29,265 nucleotides of DNA from a virus. The stretch's first letter is position 1. Each line of letters opens with the position of its first letter. Both the position numbers and the translations under genes were made by a program. Location: positions 1-29,265 of IMG/VR virus record IMGVR_UViG_3300032331_000664. The stretch is one strand, 5' to 3'. The notes under the pieces are model-generated. The model ran no database searches. It had not been told where the DNA came from and was given only the letters and a program-made list of their open reading frames with translations. This document shows positions 1 to 29,265 of the stretch, piece by piece.

Positions 1-110
1 AATTGTTGATGGAAATAATAAGGTCTTAAACCATTTGCTATGCAATAAAGTATTTTGTTTTTTAAGAAAAAAAGTCTTTTCTCTATTTTCCATGACTTAT
101 CTTGTTTCAT
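1..110 (-). CDS. Small basic hypothetical protein, runs off the left edge
   Basis: An open frame starts at the ATG at 110-108 and is still open at base 3 (36 codons seen). The product begins MKQDKSWKIEKRLFF and is rich in Lys, Phe and Tyr. The start overlaps the TGA of the MITKQQEQ mini-ORF in leader repeat copy A, an ATGA junction like many others here. If the two window ends are joined, the frame continues through TTG ACA CCC and stops at 29238-29240, giving 45 residues, followed 7 bases later by another ATG. I recognise no family. That the frame is real is likely from its position directly after the conserved leader. Confidence 0.5.
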   Translation of the reverse strand, partial: MKQDKSWKIEKRLFFLKNKILYCIANGLRPYYFHQQ

Positions 111-135
111 TGTTCTTGTTGTTTAGTTATCATTT
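106..135 (-). repeat. Leader repeat, copy A (mini-ORF MITKQQEQ)
   Basis: A 30-base direct repeat shared with copy B at 440-469. Its core on the minus strand is AACAACAAGAACAATG, whose last three bases are the start codon of the gene at 1-110. The repeat also contains an eight-codon ORF, MITKQQEQ, at 107-133. Its ATG overlaps the TGA of the upstream gene, and its own TGA overlaps the downstream ATG. Confidence 0.85.
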
Positions 136-444
136 TACTTCTAGTTTAAAGTTATCCCACACCCATTGTGCTCCTTGTTCAAAACCTTGAGTTAATCCAT
201 CATTAAAACCACCATCATCCAAGCCTTGGTGATACGGTAGCTTACCTATTTCTATCTGTAACTTTCTTATAAAAGATAAGTCCCAAGCATTTGGCGTCAT
301 GCCTACTATAAATTCAGGGTCAAGTAAGTCAATGATTGTATCCATTGCCAGTTGTAAGTCTTCTGTGCTAATCTTTACAATGTCTACACCTTTTTCCCAT
401 TTTCTGTGTAGTCTCAATATTCCTATTGCTTCTGATATATTCAT
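130..444 (-). CDS. Hypothetical small early phage protein
   Basis: A 104-residue protein with no recognised family. The N-terminal part (about 1-45) looks helical and charged, and the C-terminal part is acidic with a Gly/Asp/Gln-rich stretch (about 73-95). There is no signal peptide or membrane segment, so it is probably cytoplasmic. The start at 444 follows leader repeat copy B directly. The stop at 130-132 overlaps the mini-ORF ATG of copy A. Its place downstream of the recombination genes suggests an accessory early gene. Function is unknown. Confidence 0.75.
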   Translation of the reverse strand: MNISEAIGILRLHRKWEKGVDIVKISTEDLQLAMDTIIDLLDPEFIVGMTPNAWDLSFIRKLQIEIGKLPYHQGLDDGGFNDGLTQGFEQGAQWVWDNFKLEVK

Positions 445-469
445 TGTTCTTGTTGTTTAGTTATCATTT
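440..469 (-). repeat. Leader repeat, copy B (mini-ORF MITKQQEQ)
   Basis: Identical to copy A over 30 bases. The mini-ORF at 441-467 reads MITKQQEQ and its TGA overlaps the ATG of the gene at 130-444. The A-rich stretch just before the start codon fits translation initiation in Bacteroidota, which depends little on Shine-Dalgarno pairing. Confidence 0.85.
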
Positions 470-499
470 CTATTTAAGATATGTGGTAAAAATTGGGAC

Positions 500-709
500 T
501 TATTCTTGTTCGATTGTACCATCTCTGTAATGGGTTGTCACTTGACTAAACTCTGTACTATCATCTACTATATCAAGGTGTCCACTGAATACATAGCCAG
601 TAGCTTGTAGCATTCTTTCAAGTATTTCTAACATCTCATCCATTGAAACATCGTTGTGTTTGACTGAGTAGGTTACCGTGTGTTCGTATTGTTCGATTGT
701 TATTTTCAT
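500..709 (-). CDS. Hypothetical small acidic phage protein
   Basis: A 69-residue acidic protein starting MKITIEQYEHTVTYSV. It has a predicted beta-rich N-terminus, a helical stretch MDEMLEILERML (about 23-34) and a beta-rich C-terminus. This layout resembles short proteins of unknown function in other Bacteroidota phages, but I know no function. The ATG at 709 overlaps the stop of the upstream nuclease gene (ATGA, 706-709), so it is translationally coupled to the recombination genes. Confidence 0.75.
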   Translation of the reverse strand: MKITIEQYEHTVTYSVKHNDVSMDEMLEILERMLQATGYVFSGHLDIVDDSTEFSQVTTHYRDGTIEQE

Positions 710-1323
710 TTCGCTTCCAATAATTTATAATACTCATTATAATACTCAGTACACAATTCCAATCTCTCAACCATCTCCTGCTCCTTAGCCTCATCACGAT
801 CAAACGAAAGTACGGTGATTCTCTTCTCCGGTGCGATGTGGTCAACGCGATGTATATCTAAGTTCTCCCACTCGTTTAGTAGCTCGTTGGATGTTGTTAC
901 CATGCAGTAGATTAATTCTGCCTTAGGTTTGTCGTATAGCCTCATGTAAGCTCTCAACTGCCACTCATAGATTGCATCGTATCCATCCTCTGCCATCACT
1001 GGAAAGGTATCCAATGACCAGGATGTCTTGATGTCGATGATTGAATCGTTTGTGATGATATCTGCTTCGCCTGTCATCAGCTCGTCAACCATTCGCACCG
1101 TGTTCTTGACGTATCCCTCGAATCGCACGGTGTTAACCAGGTCAATTGAATCCTGCTCTTGACTCAATCCCTTCTCAATGTACTTGGAATTGATTTGACT
1201 GCGGTATCCGTAGAAGTTTTCCTTAGCAACTTGCTTGATGTAAGTTTTTGCAGTTTGTCCCATTTCATTCTTTCCTCGGCCGTTGGTCATCAACTTACCG
1301 ATGGAGGATGGATGCCATTTCAT
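706..1323 (-). CDS. PD-(D/E)XK nuclease, YqaJ/lambda-exonuclease-like
   Basis: A 205-residue probable nuclease. Visible motifs are the G-E-A-D segment at about 85-88, followed by the I-D-I-K strand (Asp97, Lys99) and a QLRAYM helix near 122. This is the usual order of acidic residue, Asp-x-Lys and Gln-containing helix in PD-(D/E)XK exonucleases. An upstream K-G...E patch (about 51-56) could supply another metal ligand. It follows the ERF-type annealing protein with an ATGA overlap (1320-1323). Such exonuclease and annealing protein pairs perform phage single-strand-annealing recombination. Inferred role: resecting DNA ends for the ERF protein. A Cas4-like or plain degradative role cannot be excluded. 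Confidence 0.72.
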   Translation of the reverse strand: MKWHPSSIGKLMTNGRGKNEMGQTAKTYIKQVAKENFYGYRSQINSKYIEKGLSQEQDSIDLVNTVRFEGYVKNTVRMVDELMTGEADIITNDSIIDIKTSWSLDTFPVMAEDGYDAIYEWQLRAYMRLYDKPKAELIYCMVTTSNELLNEWENLDIHRVDHIAPEKRITVLSFDRDEAKEQEMVERLELCTEYYNEYYKLLEAK

Positions 1324-1841
1324 AATTCTAATGCTTTAAGTTGTACCTCAGTCAATGTCCATTTCTCAATCAATTGCTCCTTTGTGTACTTTCCTGCTTG
1401 AATGGATGCCACTGCGGATTCGAATCTCGCATTGTCCAACGCAGGTTTAACGGGTGCGACTGCAATCGATGCTGCCTTTCCATCATCATCCACCGCCTGA
1501 AGCGATAACAATGATTGCAATGTTCCTCTTCGGAAGTAAGTCACCGCACTCAATACCTTTTGTGGATCAGTTATAATCGGCAAGGTCATGAATGACTCAA
1601 CCATCTCACCCGAATCGATGTCAATGATTCTCGTCACGACATCATTTCCAACAATTGGTTGAAGCAATATCAATCCATTCTCCAAAAGAATTGGCTCGAC
1701 TGCGGTGAGCAGTGCATTGATGTCGGCATATGACTTTTTGAAATGTGGATTCGTTGCATTCTTTGCTACCTTTCCAATCTGCTGTTTAGCAAGATGCAAC
1801 TTTTGATACAGTGTTGCGACTGTTTTTGTGTTCTTTTCCAT
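1320..1841 (-). CDS. erf: ERF-family single-strand annealing protein
   Basis: A 173-residue protein. Its N-terminal half matches the ERF pattern: helical start, then NPHFKKSYADINALLTAVEP, then a hydrophobic ENGLILLQP strand and a beta sheet. ERF proteins bind single-stranded DNA and anneal complementary strands, often helping to circularise phage DNA. I chose the ATG at 1841 (MEKNTKTVATL) over the ATG at 1862. It leaves exactly 21 bases between a TAnnTTTG-like box (1863-1870) and the start, the same spacing as at the primase gene, and the leader contains AACACGC. The C-terminal segment (about 145-173) is a separate helical tail. Confidence 0.8.
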   Translation of the reverse strand: MEKNTKTVATLYQKLHLAKQQIGKVAKNATNPHFKKSYADINALLTAVEPILLENGLILLQPIVGNDVVTRIIDIDSGEMVESFMTLPIITDPQKVLSAVTYFRRGTLQSLLSLQAVDDDGKAASIAVAPVKPALDNARFESAVASIQAGKYTKEQLIEKWTLTEVQLKALEL

Positions 1842-1862
1842 AATTAGCGTGTTAATTTTCAA

Positions 1863-28413: not shown

Positions 28414-28615
28414 AATACTTGAAAAATTTGATATAGAACTCCTCATTCACTGGATGACCTTTCAAGAATCTCCACAACTGAAGGTAAGTGATTCCCATAT
28501 CTTCAGCGATATGTGCTAATTTGTATCTCTTGGATACCCGTGACCTCATCTCTCGATCGATGAAGTCACGAATGGTTTCCCCATCAGAAAGGTGAATCGT
28601 CAAAGCTCTCATCAA
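28403..28615 (-). CDS. Small helix-turn-helix protein
   Basis: A 70-residue protein. The C-terminal half, KLAHIAEDMGITYLQLWRFL then KGHPVNEEFYIKFFKYYE, has the form of a lambda-repressor-like helix-turn-helix. The N-terminal half is a short strand and helix (RALTIHLSDGETIRDFI). Met2 (28612) is an alternative start. It overlaps the DUF3127 gene by 32 bases. Probably a small regulator. Confidence 0.6.
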   Translation of the reverse strand: MMRALTIHLSDGETIRDFIDREMRSRVSKRYKLAHIAEDMGITYLQLWRFLKGHPVNEEFYIKFFKYYER

Positions 28616-28886
28616 CTACCGGCATTGAGTTAATATTCCACACATCCAAAGTATTATAATACTTCCCGTTGTATTCTCTCCCTCTCAGATTGAATTTCAC
28701 GGTGATATCGATACCAGGTGAATACTCGTTGAGTAGTTTACACTTATCTTGAGCCAATTGGAAGATGACATCCTGAGGATAATCTCCATTCGGTACGGTT
28801 AGGACAAACATTCTCACTGAGAACTTGTCGCTGATTTGTTTGATTGGCTCAATCATCTTGATTGTACCTGTTACTTGTAATTCCAT
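28584..28886 (-). CDS. DUF3127 protein, SSB-like
   Basis: A 100-residue protein that fits DUF3127: MELQVTGTIKMIEPI, YPQDVIFQLAQDKCKLL, VKFNLRGREYNGKYYNTL. This family is common in Bacteroidota and their phages and looks like a single OB-fold domain. The C-terminus is acidic and ends DESFDDSPF, much like the protein-binding tail of bacterial SSB (DDDIPF). Inferred role: a phage single-stranded DNA-binding protein. No other SSB is visible in this window, which supports that. The leader has repeat copy C upstream. Confidence 0.78.
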   Translation of the reverse strand: MELQVTGTIKMIEPIKQISDKFSVRMFVLTVPNGDYPQDVIFQLAQDKCKLLNEYSPGIDITVKFNLRGREYNGKYYNTLDVWNINSMPVVDESFDDSPF

Positions 28887-28909
28887 TGTATATTTATTTA
28901 ATTATTACT

Positions 28910-28936
28910 ATTGTTCTTGTTGTTTAGTTATCATTT
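28910..28936 (-). repeat. Leader repeat, copy C (mini-ORF ends in TAG)
   Basis: Shares 27 bases with copies A and B. The mini-ORF MITKQQEQ at 28908-28934 is intact but ends in TAG rather than TGA, and the next gene starts 21 bases later (28886) behind an AT-rich leader, so the stop/start overlap is lost here. Confidence 0.85.
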
Positions 28937-28951
28937 TGTTGACTCCAACAA
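28936..28951 (-). other. Small hairpin before leader repeat copy C
   Basis: TTGTTG / CAACAA perfect six-base arms around a four-base loop. No T-run follows on either strand, so it is not an evident terminator. It could be an RNA processing or regulatory hairpin, or chance. Confidence 0.4.
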
Positions 28952-28965
28952 TATGATTATTTTGA

Positions 28966-28980
28966 TTTAAAGGTTAATTT
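28966..28980. repeat. 15-base repeat at gene 3' end, copy 1
   Basis: TTTAAAGGTTAATTT is identical at 28966-28980 and 29143-29157. Each copy encodes the last residues (I-N-L) and the stop codon of one gene, so two unrelated neighbouring genes end in the same sequence. Confidence 0.75.
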
Positions 28981-29131
28981 GTATTAAAGTTCCTGCAATA
29001 ATCATCATACCAATTATTGCAAACCAAAGAGTTGAATAAGATTCTATTATTGTTTCTCTTTTATAGTTTACCGCATGCCATATAATAGTAAATCCTATTA
29101 CTTTAAGTATAAATTCTAATATCTCTTTCAT
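28967..29131 (-). CDS. Small two-pass membrane protein
   Basis: A 54-residue protein, MKEILEFILKVIGFTIIW, then YKRETIIESYSTLWFAIIGMM and IIAGTLIQINL. Two hydrophobic segments at about 5-20 and 35-51. It starts directly at leader repeat copy D and its stop lies in the 15-base repeat. Function is unknown. Confidence 0.6.
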   Translation of the reverse strand: MKEILEFILKVIGFTIIWHAVNYKRETIIESYSTLWFAIIGMMIIAGTLIQINL

Positions 29132-29146
29132 TGTTCTTGTTGTTTA
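29126..29146 (-). repeat. Leader repeat, copy D (short form)
   Basis: Shares 21 bases with copy A, from the TAA that here is the stop of the upstream gene through AACAACAAGAACAATG and the next two A-rich bases. It lacks the ATGATAAC part, so there is no mini-ORF in this copy. The conserved element is therefore the stretch directly before the start codon. Confidence 0.8.
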
Positions 29147-29157
29147 AAGGTTAATTT
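29143..29157. repeat. 15-base repeat at gene 3' end, copy 2
   Basis: Second copy of TTTAAAGGTTAATTT, covering the end of the right-edge gene and adjoining leader repeat copy D. Confidence 0.75.
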
Positions 29158-29265
29158 TGTTTATGTAACTTGTGCCGATGCTTTCTTCAACACCATCAAG
29201 TTTGTAGTAATAAACAACACCATAATCCATATCAACTTTATGAGTTGTAAATACTCTTGGGTGTC
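29144..29265 (-). CDS. Hypothetical protein, cut by or starting near the right edge
   Basis: Open from the right edge to TAA at 29144-29146, 39 residues seen (ending with GVVYYYKLDGVEESIG then TSYINKINL). An internal ATG at 29230 would give a 28-residue protein. If the ends are joined, the frame is closed by a TGA just upstream of the visible part, so the 29230 start would then be used, 7 bases after the stop of the junction-spanning gene. No family is recognised. Confidence 0.5.
   Translation of the reverse strand, partial: HPRVFTTHKVDMDYGVVYYYKLDGVEESIGTSYINKINL

Follow-up and report, generated by a model that had tools for sequence, protein, structure and literature searches.

Why does an uncultured phage carry one short sequence at the starts of several of its small genes? 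We followed this question in a 29,265-bp linear viral record (IMGVR_UViG_3300032331_000664; "the window" below means this whole stretch). It comes from an uncultured tailed phage with most of its genes on the minus strand, and includes homologues of portal, large terminase, Erf, exonuclease, a primase-like protein and SSB. A preliminary description had reported four copies (A to D) of a 30-base repeat, linked to gene starts and carrying an eight-codon mini-ORF, MITKQQEQ. The copies and their surroundings are as follows.

1–110, minus strand: cassette gene MKQDKSWKIEKRLFF... (MKQDKSWKIEK...), truncated by the contig end; opened by copy A
106–135, minus strand: junction copy A, linker end AAATGAT followed by AACTAAACAACAAGAACAATGA
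130–444, minus strand: cassette gene MNISEAIGILRL... (MNISEAIGI...), 104 aa; opened by copy B
440–469, minus strand: junction copy B, identical to A (30/30); opens the cassette gene at 130–444
470–499, minus strand: linker 1 (AATTTTTACCACATATCTTAAATAG...), source of the mini-ORF ATG in most mini-ORF copies
500–709, minus strand: recurrent gene MKITIEQYEH..., the last gene ahead of the array in the closest relatives
706–1323, minus strand: exonuclease (phrog_5715, 4.5e-59), between Erf and the array
1320–1862, minus strand: Erf-family single-strand annealing protein (PF04404, 9e-16; phrog_2324, 2.5e-32), upstream of the array
28584–28886, minus strand: single-strand DNA binding protein homologue (phrog_4932, 1.1e-20; DUF3127), first gene past the array
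28907–28936, minus strand: junction copy C, a partial match to A/B in the array-end form, reading AACAATAG
28937–28966, minus strand: linker 2, with the hairpin TTGTTG-GAGT-CAACAA; source of the ATG in mini-ORF C
28967–29131, minus strand: cassette gene MKEILEFILKVIGF... (MKEILEFIL...), 54 aa; opened by copy D
29127–29156, minus strand: junction copy D, a partial match to A/B reading TTTAAACAACAAGAACAATGA
29144–29263, minus strand: cassette gene ...HPRVFTTHKVD...INKINL, truncated by the contig end; of the family starting MKTKQSEISD

All four copies were recovered at these positions and on the same strand, and the number of matches in the window is beyond chance: there are 9 sites at three or fewer mismatches against 1.1 expected, a count that none of 100 shuffles reached. 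As described earlier, MITKQQEQ is encoded in A, B and C, its TGA overlaps the next ATG in A and B, and in A its ATG overlaps the TGA of the 104-aa gene. Copy A closes that gene with the TGA of ATGA, holds the mini-ORF and opens the cassette gene at 110. The repeat is real, but the 30-mer is not its unit. The consensus over the collected copies is TAAACAACAAGAACAATGA, which defines a conserved unit of about 19–22 nt with an invariant part of about 17–19 nt; we call it the junction. A second common form is TTTAAACAAC, and copy D, previously taken for a shortened repeat, is an example of it: its TAA ends the upstream gene and its ATG opens the 54-aa gene. With ATA where the ATG would be, copy C starts no gene, contrary to the earlier assignment; its stop is retained as TAG, and the SSB gene opens a short distance further on behind a leader of its own.

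Erf and the exonuclease lie just before the array and ssb just after it, with copy C closing the array. The copies at the two contig ends belong to one array, and the contig break falls inside it. A direct circular joining of the window ends was tried and rejected: the two truncated cassettes are out of frame with each other there, which means that the window lacks at least part of the array. Two sibling contigs, the window (at both ends) and G033 (L105/L117), share a break inside the cassette array, as if array variation within the sample had halted their assembly. Sibling arrays, from phages with terminases of 98–99% identity, carry different cassettes between the exonuclease/MKITIEQYEH region and ssb. 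In 10 stretches elsewhere, copies of the C type (ATA with the stop retained) stand ahead of a conserved leader, GTAACAATTAAA, indicating that the array keeps its last repeat even though no gene starts there; exchange between direct repeats would be expected to give N cassettes flanked by N+1 repeats. As for the cassettes themselves, the gene cut at copy A is 57 aa long and ends in KQQEQ* in G034/G011, a PHROG search with the 104-aa protein returned zero matches, and a close relative of the 54-aa gene (MKEMLEFILEVIGF...) follows a junction in the 65-kb contig L149.

The sequences bordering the junctions have peculiarities of their own. Linker 1 (window 470–499 and many loci, among them L096 and L042) contains a near-palindrome found in both orientations, AAGTGGCAATTTTTACCACAT and AAGGGGTAAAAATTGCCACAT, with a junction following it in 59 of 85 occurrences; its stem is broken in the window. 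The linker 2 hairpin sits directly before the junction (−9.4 kcal/mol, z −2.2) in the window (28937–28966) and in L109, L117, L144, L149 and L150. T-arm-like tRNA letters (GGTTCGAATC...ACTACT) immediately precede some junctions (L104, L017, L094, L010); ARAGORN found no tRNA there, and these letters may be tRNA fragments or unusual tRNAs.

The preliminary description had proposed searching related phages for the repeat, and far from being absent there it is carried by more than 100 uncultured viral contigs, ranging from 4-kb fragments to 174 kb. An exact 22-mer of the first form matches at least 120 stretches in viral_contigs, as does a 22-mer of the second form (CTTTAAACAACAAGAACAATGA; at least 120 stretches, contigs up to 174 kb), and the reversed 22-mer matches none. 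The 16-mer core AACAACAAGAACAATG was counted over 155 loci, which gave 348 exact occurrences, 56 with one mismatch and 27 with two (reversed core: 0, 0 and 6). Forty-four whole records hold 1–8 copies each, usually clustered (control 0), and all on one strand per record with the sole exception of G018. The terminases of these 44 records range from 99% identity to that of the window down to about 30%, and 20 of them give no detectable match; the junction is thus far better conserved than the phages that carry it. The same cassette families were seen in 65–120-kb contigs and in 30-kb phages (L093, L053, L149), which suggests exchange between very different phages. Records of cultured phages gave no convincing match to a 31-mer (best E about 0.2) and zero matches to the window's 924-aa protein. 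A host origin of the junction was rejected, the exact 16-mer occurring in 3 of 296 Bacteroidota genomes against 2 for the reversed control, and a 20-mer has two single matches in bacterial genomes, both at Bacteroidia gene starts (gltX and a protein with a signal-like N-terminus). At the sensitivity of these searches the junction is essentially absent from cultured phages and from Bacteroidota genomes.

The ATG of the junction opens a short gene (ORFs of at least 30 aa in 230 of 243 cases, median 66 aa), and the overlapping TGA of ATGA ends the frame that reads KQQEQ. In 108 of 255 distinct copies the upstream gene runs in frame through the junction and stops at this TGA, its protein finishing in KQQEQ (QQQEQ in one); in another 39 it ends at a TAA fifteen bases ahead of the ATG (−15), and other upstream genes end shortly before the junction or before a linker. 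The TAA lies in the frame of the ATG, the TGA in the KQQEQ frame, and a linker TGATAA supplies a stop in the third, with the result that all three frames are closed where the linker ends in TGATAAC. Stops in all frames together with a start codon make the junction a combined gene end and gene start. Base +3 is A in 129 of the 130 copies in which the search left that base free (56% at control starts), so that the overlapping stop is retained even where the present neighbour ignores it; copies at array ends have lost the ATG and kept the stop (TAA/TAG).

The KQQEQ frame raises two peptide-based explanations. One casts MITKQQEQ as a leader peptide with a regulatory role, or as an attenuator, an option already raised in the preliminary description. 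We fetched 66 intact mini-ORFs from the loci, always just ahead of the next start or the array end as a leader peptide would be, using a search that permitted every synonymous codon of MITKQQEQ*. Yet 62 of them are identical, the other 4 differ only by TAG for TGA, and the number of synonymous variants is zero; it is the letters that are conserved, not the peptide. Changes in variant copies fall on first codon positions (87) more than on third positions (39), which likewise speaks against a conserved peptide. The mini-ORF is a special case in which a linker happens to put an ATG in the KQQEQ frame: 55 of the 66 take it from linker 1 and 8 from linker 2, another version of the linker reads ATGTAA, and the mini-ORF is lacking at most junctions. 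A leader peptide or attenuator is therefore highly unlikely. The other explanation, that KQQEQ* is a functional C-terminal tag (a degron or localisation signal) of many small phage proteins, can point to the 108 of 255 upstream genes that end in it. Members of single families occur with and without the tail, however (NGII* and NGITKQQEQ*; ...YYNETFS* and ...YYNETFKQQEQ*), and the letters are equally conserved where the upstream gene uses another frame or ends earlier. We find this reading harder still to credit than the leader peptide.

The other side of the junction bears on translation initiation. In F. johnsoniae, As at −3, −6, −12 and −13 favour initiation (Baez et al., PMC6847099), and the junction consensus has A at all four positions and lacks the Shine-Dalgarno core AGGAG. 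Control starts on the same contigs peak in A at two positions, −12 (69%) and −3 (51%), and likewise lack a G-rich Shine-Dalgarno sequence. The predicted folding energy around the start has a median of 0.0 kcal/mol at the junction compared with −2.15 kcal/mol at control starts. Among copies with three or fewer mismatches, 87 changes fall on 4 C/G positions and 74 on 9 A positions (p = 1e-9), the C/G positions being first codon positions; that they are freer to vary than the As fits an A-rich initiation region. The fixed position of the ATG, the lack of a Shine-Dalgarno sequence, the unstructured RNA and the near-universal ATGA overlap all bear out the earlier suggestion of an A-rich initiation element. 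With its stop-start coupling it is one half of the picture, the half that was missed being a widespread junction for cassette exchange. Judged from these sequence features, the junction probably drives translation, and the host of these phages is probably a Bacteroidota. These As, together with the absence of a Shine-Dalgarno sequence and low structure, are shared with the Kozak-like A-rich regions of Bacteroidota (PMC6847099); theirs is a compositional preference, whereas the junction is a fixed sequence of 16–19 nt.

Homology between genomes changes at the junction. An all-against-all blastn placed 6,610 of its 55,675 alignment ends within the 2% of sequence around it; upstream homology stops just past the ATG, and downstream homology begins mostly 10–25 nt before it. 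Homologous partners are broken at the junction in 81%/82% of cases against 30%/40% at control starts and 30%/36% at controls within 1.5 kb, and in small ORFs close to arrays the break fraction on the upstream side declines from 0.82 through 0.76, 0.68 and 0.35 to 0.29 with mismatch classes of 0, 1–2, 3–4, 5–6 and 7 or more, these per-start fractions not being independent because the contigs are related and the loci were picked for carrying the motif. In 283 pairs of copies (119 sites) the 101 nt upstream are at least 90% identical, yet different genes follow; 128 pairs show the reverse situation. Matching of flanks gave 34 clean cassette indels (24 intervals) and 76 replacements. Near-identical pairs contributed only 6 distinct clean indels, of which 2 had an exact junction on either side. 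The clearest single case is L096 versus L049, identical over 6,708 nt before and 369 nt after (to the contig end), where the sole difference is one 206-bp cassette between two 19-bp TAAACAACAAGAACAATGA copies; a second such case, L040/L060, involves 579 bp and a 20-nt repeat. A collapse during assembly is unlikely in L096/L049, since a 19-nt repeat is shorter than the usual assembly k-mers. The 316 proteins that start at junctions form 121 families, the largest of which (TAVEW...YYNETF) has 47 members in 32 upstream contexts. Proteins of this commonest family (L168:2750-3022 and 46 others) share the TAVEW start and the YYNETF end around a variable middle, and the member tested had no match in Pfam and PHROG searches.

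Could initiation by itself account for these patterns? The junction might be only a strong A-rich initiation/coupling element that spreads with its genes, the breakpoints then being borders where viable exchanges survive. The fixed ATG, the Bacteroidota-type context, the low structure, the greater freedom of C/G over A and the location of both bacterial 20-mer matches at Bacteroidia gene starts all agree with this. However, homology is broken far less often at ordinary starts 0–1.5 kb away, and breakage falls off by degrees as likeness to the motif is lost; most copies (130 of 212 non-seed ones) match all 16 letters, beyond what A-richness needs; and array-end copies retain the sequence without the ATG. 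We therefore regard initiation on its own as unlikely, though less so than either peptide reading. A binding site for a phage or host regulator (RNA or protein) on mRNA or DNA, as suggested for the SAS of mycobacteriophages, would be in keeping with near-exact conservation of 16–19 nt in unrelated contigs. It is set against the low conservation upstream, where positions beyond −18 stay under about 0.5 bit and no promoter element stands out, the many copies within the upstream coding region, the absence of any match in an Rfam search of the window, and the breakpoints, which a regulator alone leaves unexplained; we consider it about as improbable as the leader peptide.

Our preferred explanation, which we hold to be probable, is that a hypervariable small-gene array is joined throughout by this repeat, which combines an initiation site of the non-Shine-Dalgarno type and a stop with homology for exchange. 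The junction, about 20 nt long, would end the upstream gene and give the next one a place to initiate that is A-rich and unstructured, as in Bacteroidota. As all junctions share the same letters, two of them could recombine, within one phage or between phages, and one or more genes would be inserted, lost or exchanged in a single step with correct stop and start. The anatomy, the conservation at the nucleotide level, the breakpoints at the junction and the precise cassette indels were observed directly. A pure recombination site would need no ATG, and a pure initiation site would need no 16 fixed letters; evolvability, rather than translation by itself, may be what keeps the junction identical.

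The likely machinery for such exchange is phage homologous recombination or annealing. The recurrent genes ahead of the array are Erf, the exonuclease and MKITIEQYEH; of the 44 records, 25 have Erf, and the junction lies 1.3–2.6 kb downstream of it in 23 (one distance counted across contig ends). De Paepe et al. (PMC3945230) showed efficient recombination of both identical and diverged homologies by Rad52-like enzyme pairs, Erf/exo among them, which outperformed the RecA pathway 20- to 100-fold in their assay; Erf may well act on these junctions. No Erf was found in the other 19 of 44 records, which are mostly larger contigs and of which many are fragments, so another recombinase or that of the host must act there.

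The nearest published element is the SAS (with ESAS) of Cluster K mycobacteriophages (PMC3203893); in the open-access literature we found no paper with the junction sequence and, apart from SAS, no similar element. Both are short asymmetric multi-copy repeats, mostly in one orientation, which lie just before the starts of non-structural genes of different families, are absent from host genomes and sometimes contain the upstream stop; the junction is near starts in 230 of 243 ORFs and on one strand except in G018. SAS differs in its 13-bp consensus (GGGATAGGAGCCC, as opposed to TAAACAACAAGAACAATGA), in having a Shine-Dalgarno core where the junction lacks AGGAG, and in sitting mostly in gaps of more than 50 bp within a single phage cluster. 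The junction, unlike SAS, holds the start codon and overlapping stop within the repeat, crosses unrelated phages and has documented gain and loss of cassettes.

In mosaic lambdoid phages, boundary (linker) sequences are short homologies at gene borders where modules exchange. The junction is like them a short gene-border homology used as an exchange site, and unlike them in that one sequence marks every border of the array, which leaves the cassettes free to stand in any order. Integron cassettes, too, are small genes strung together at a common joining sequence and gained and lost singly. The imperfect inverted repeats of a folded attC were not found at the junction, however (median folding energy 0.0 kcal/mol), which relies on direct homology with no integrase invoked. 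We are tempted to speculate, with rather less than even confidence, that the junction is an integrase-free platform for gene capture: a stop-start connector spread across unrelated, probably Bacteroidota, phages, at which annealing enzymes would gain, lose and swap small genes in a fixed slot with expression built in, by analogy with an integron and its attC.

Phage genomes are mosaic and rich in tiny accessory genes. The junction looks like a plug-and-play connector for phage genes, and since one identifiable sequence marks the joints, the question of how genes are swapped while expression is spared comes within reach of tests: read data allow exchanges of cassettes to be counted, and the connector lends itself to being moved and mutated. 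Bacteroidota genetics could also adopt it as a standard translation start. In uncultured phages the connector could predict accessory-gene arrays, which are a likely place for host-takeover and anti-defence genes.
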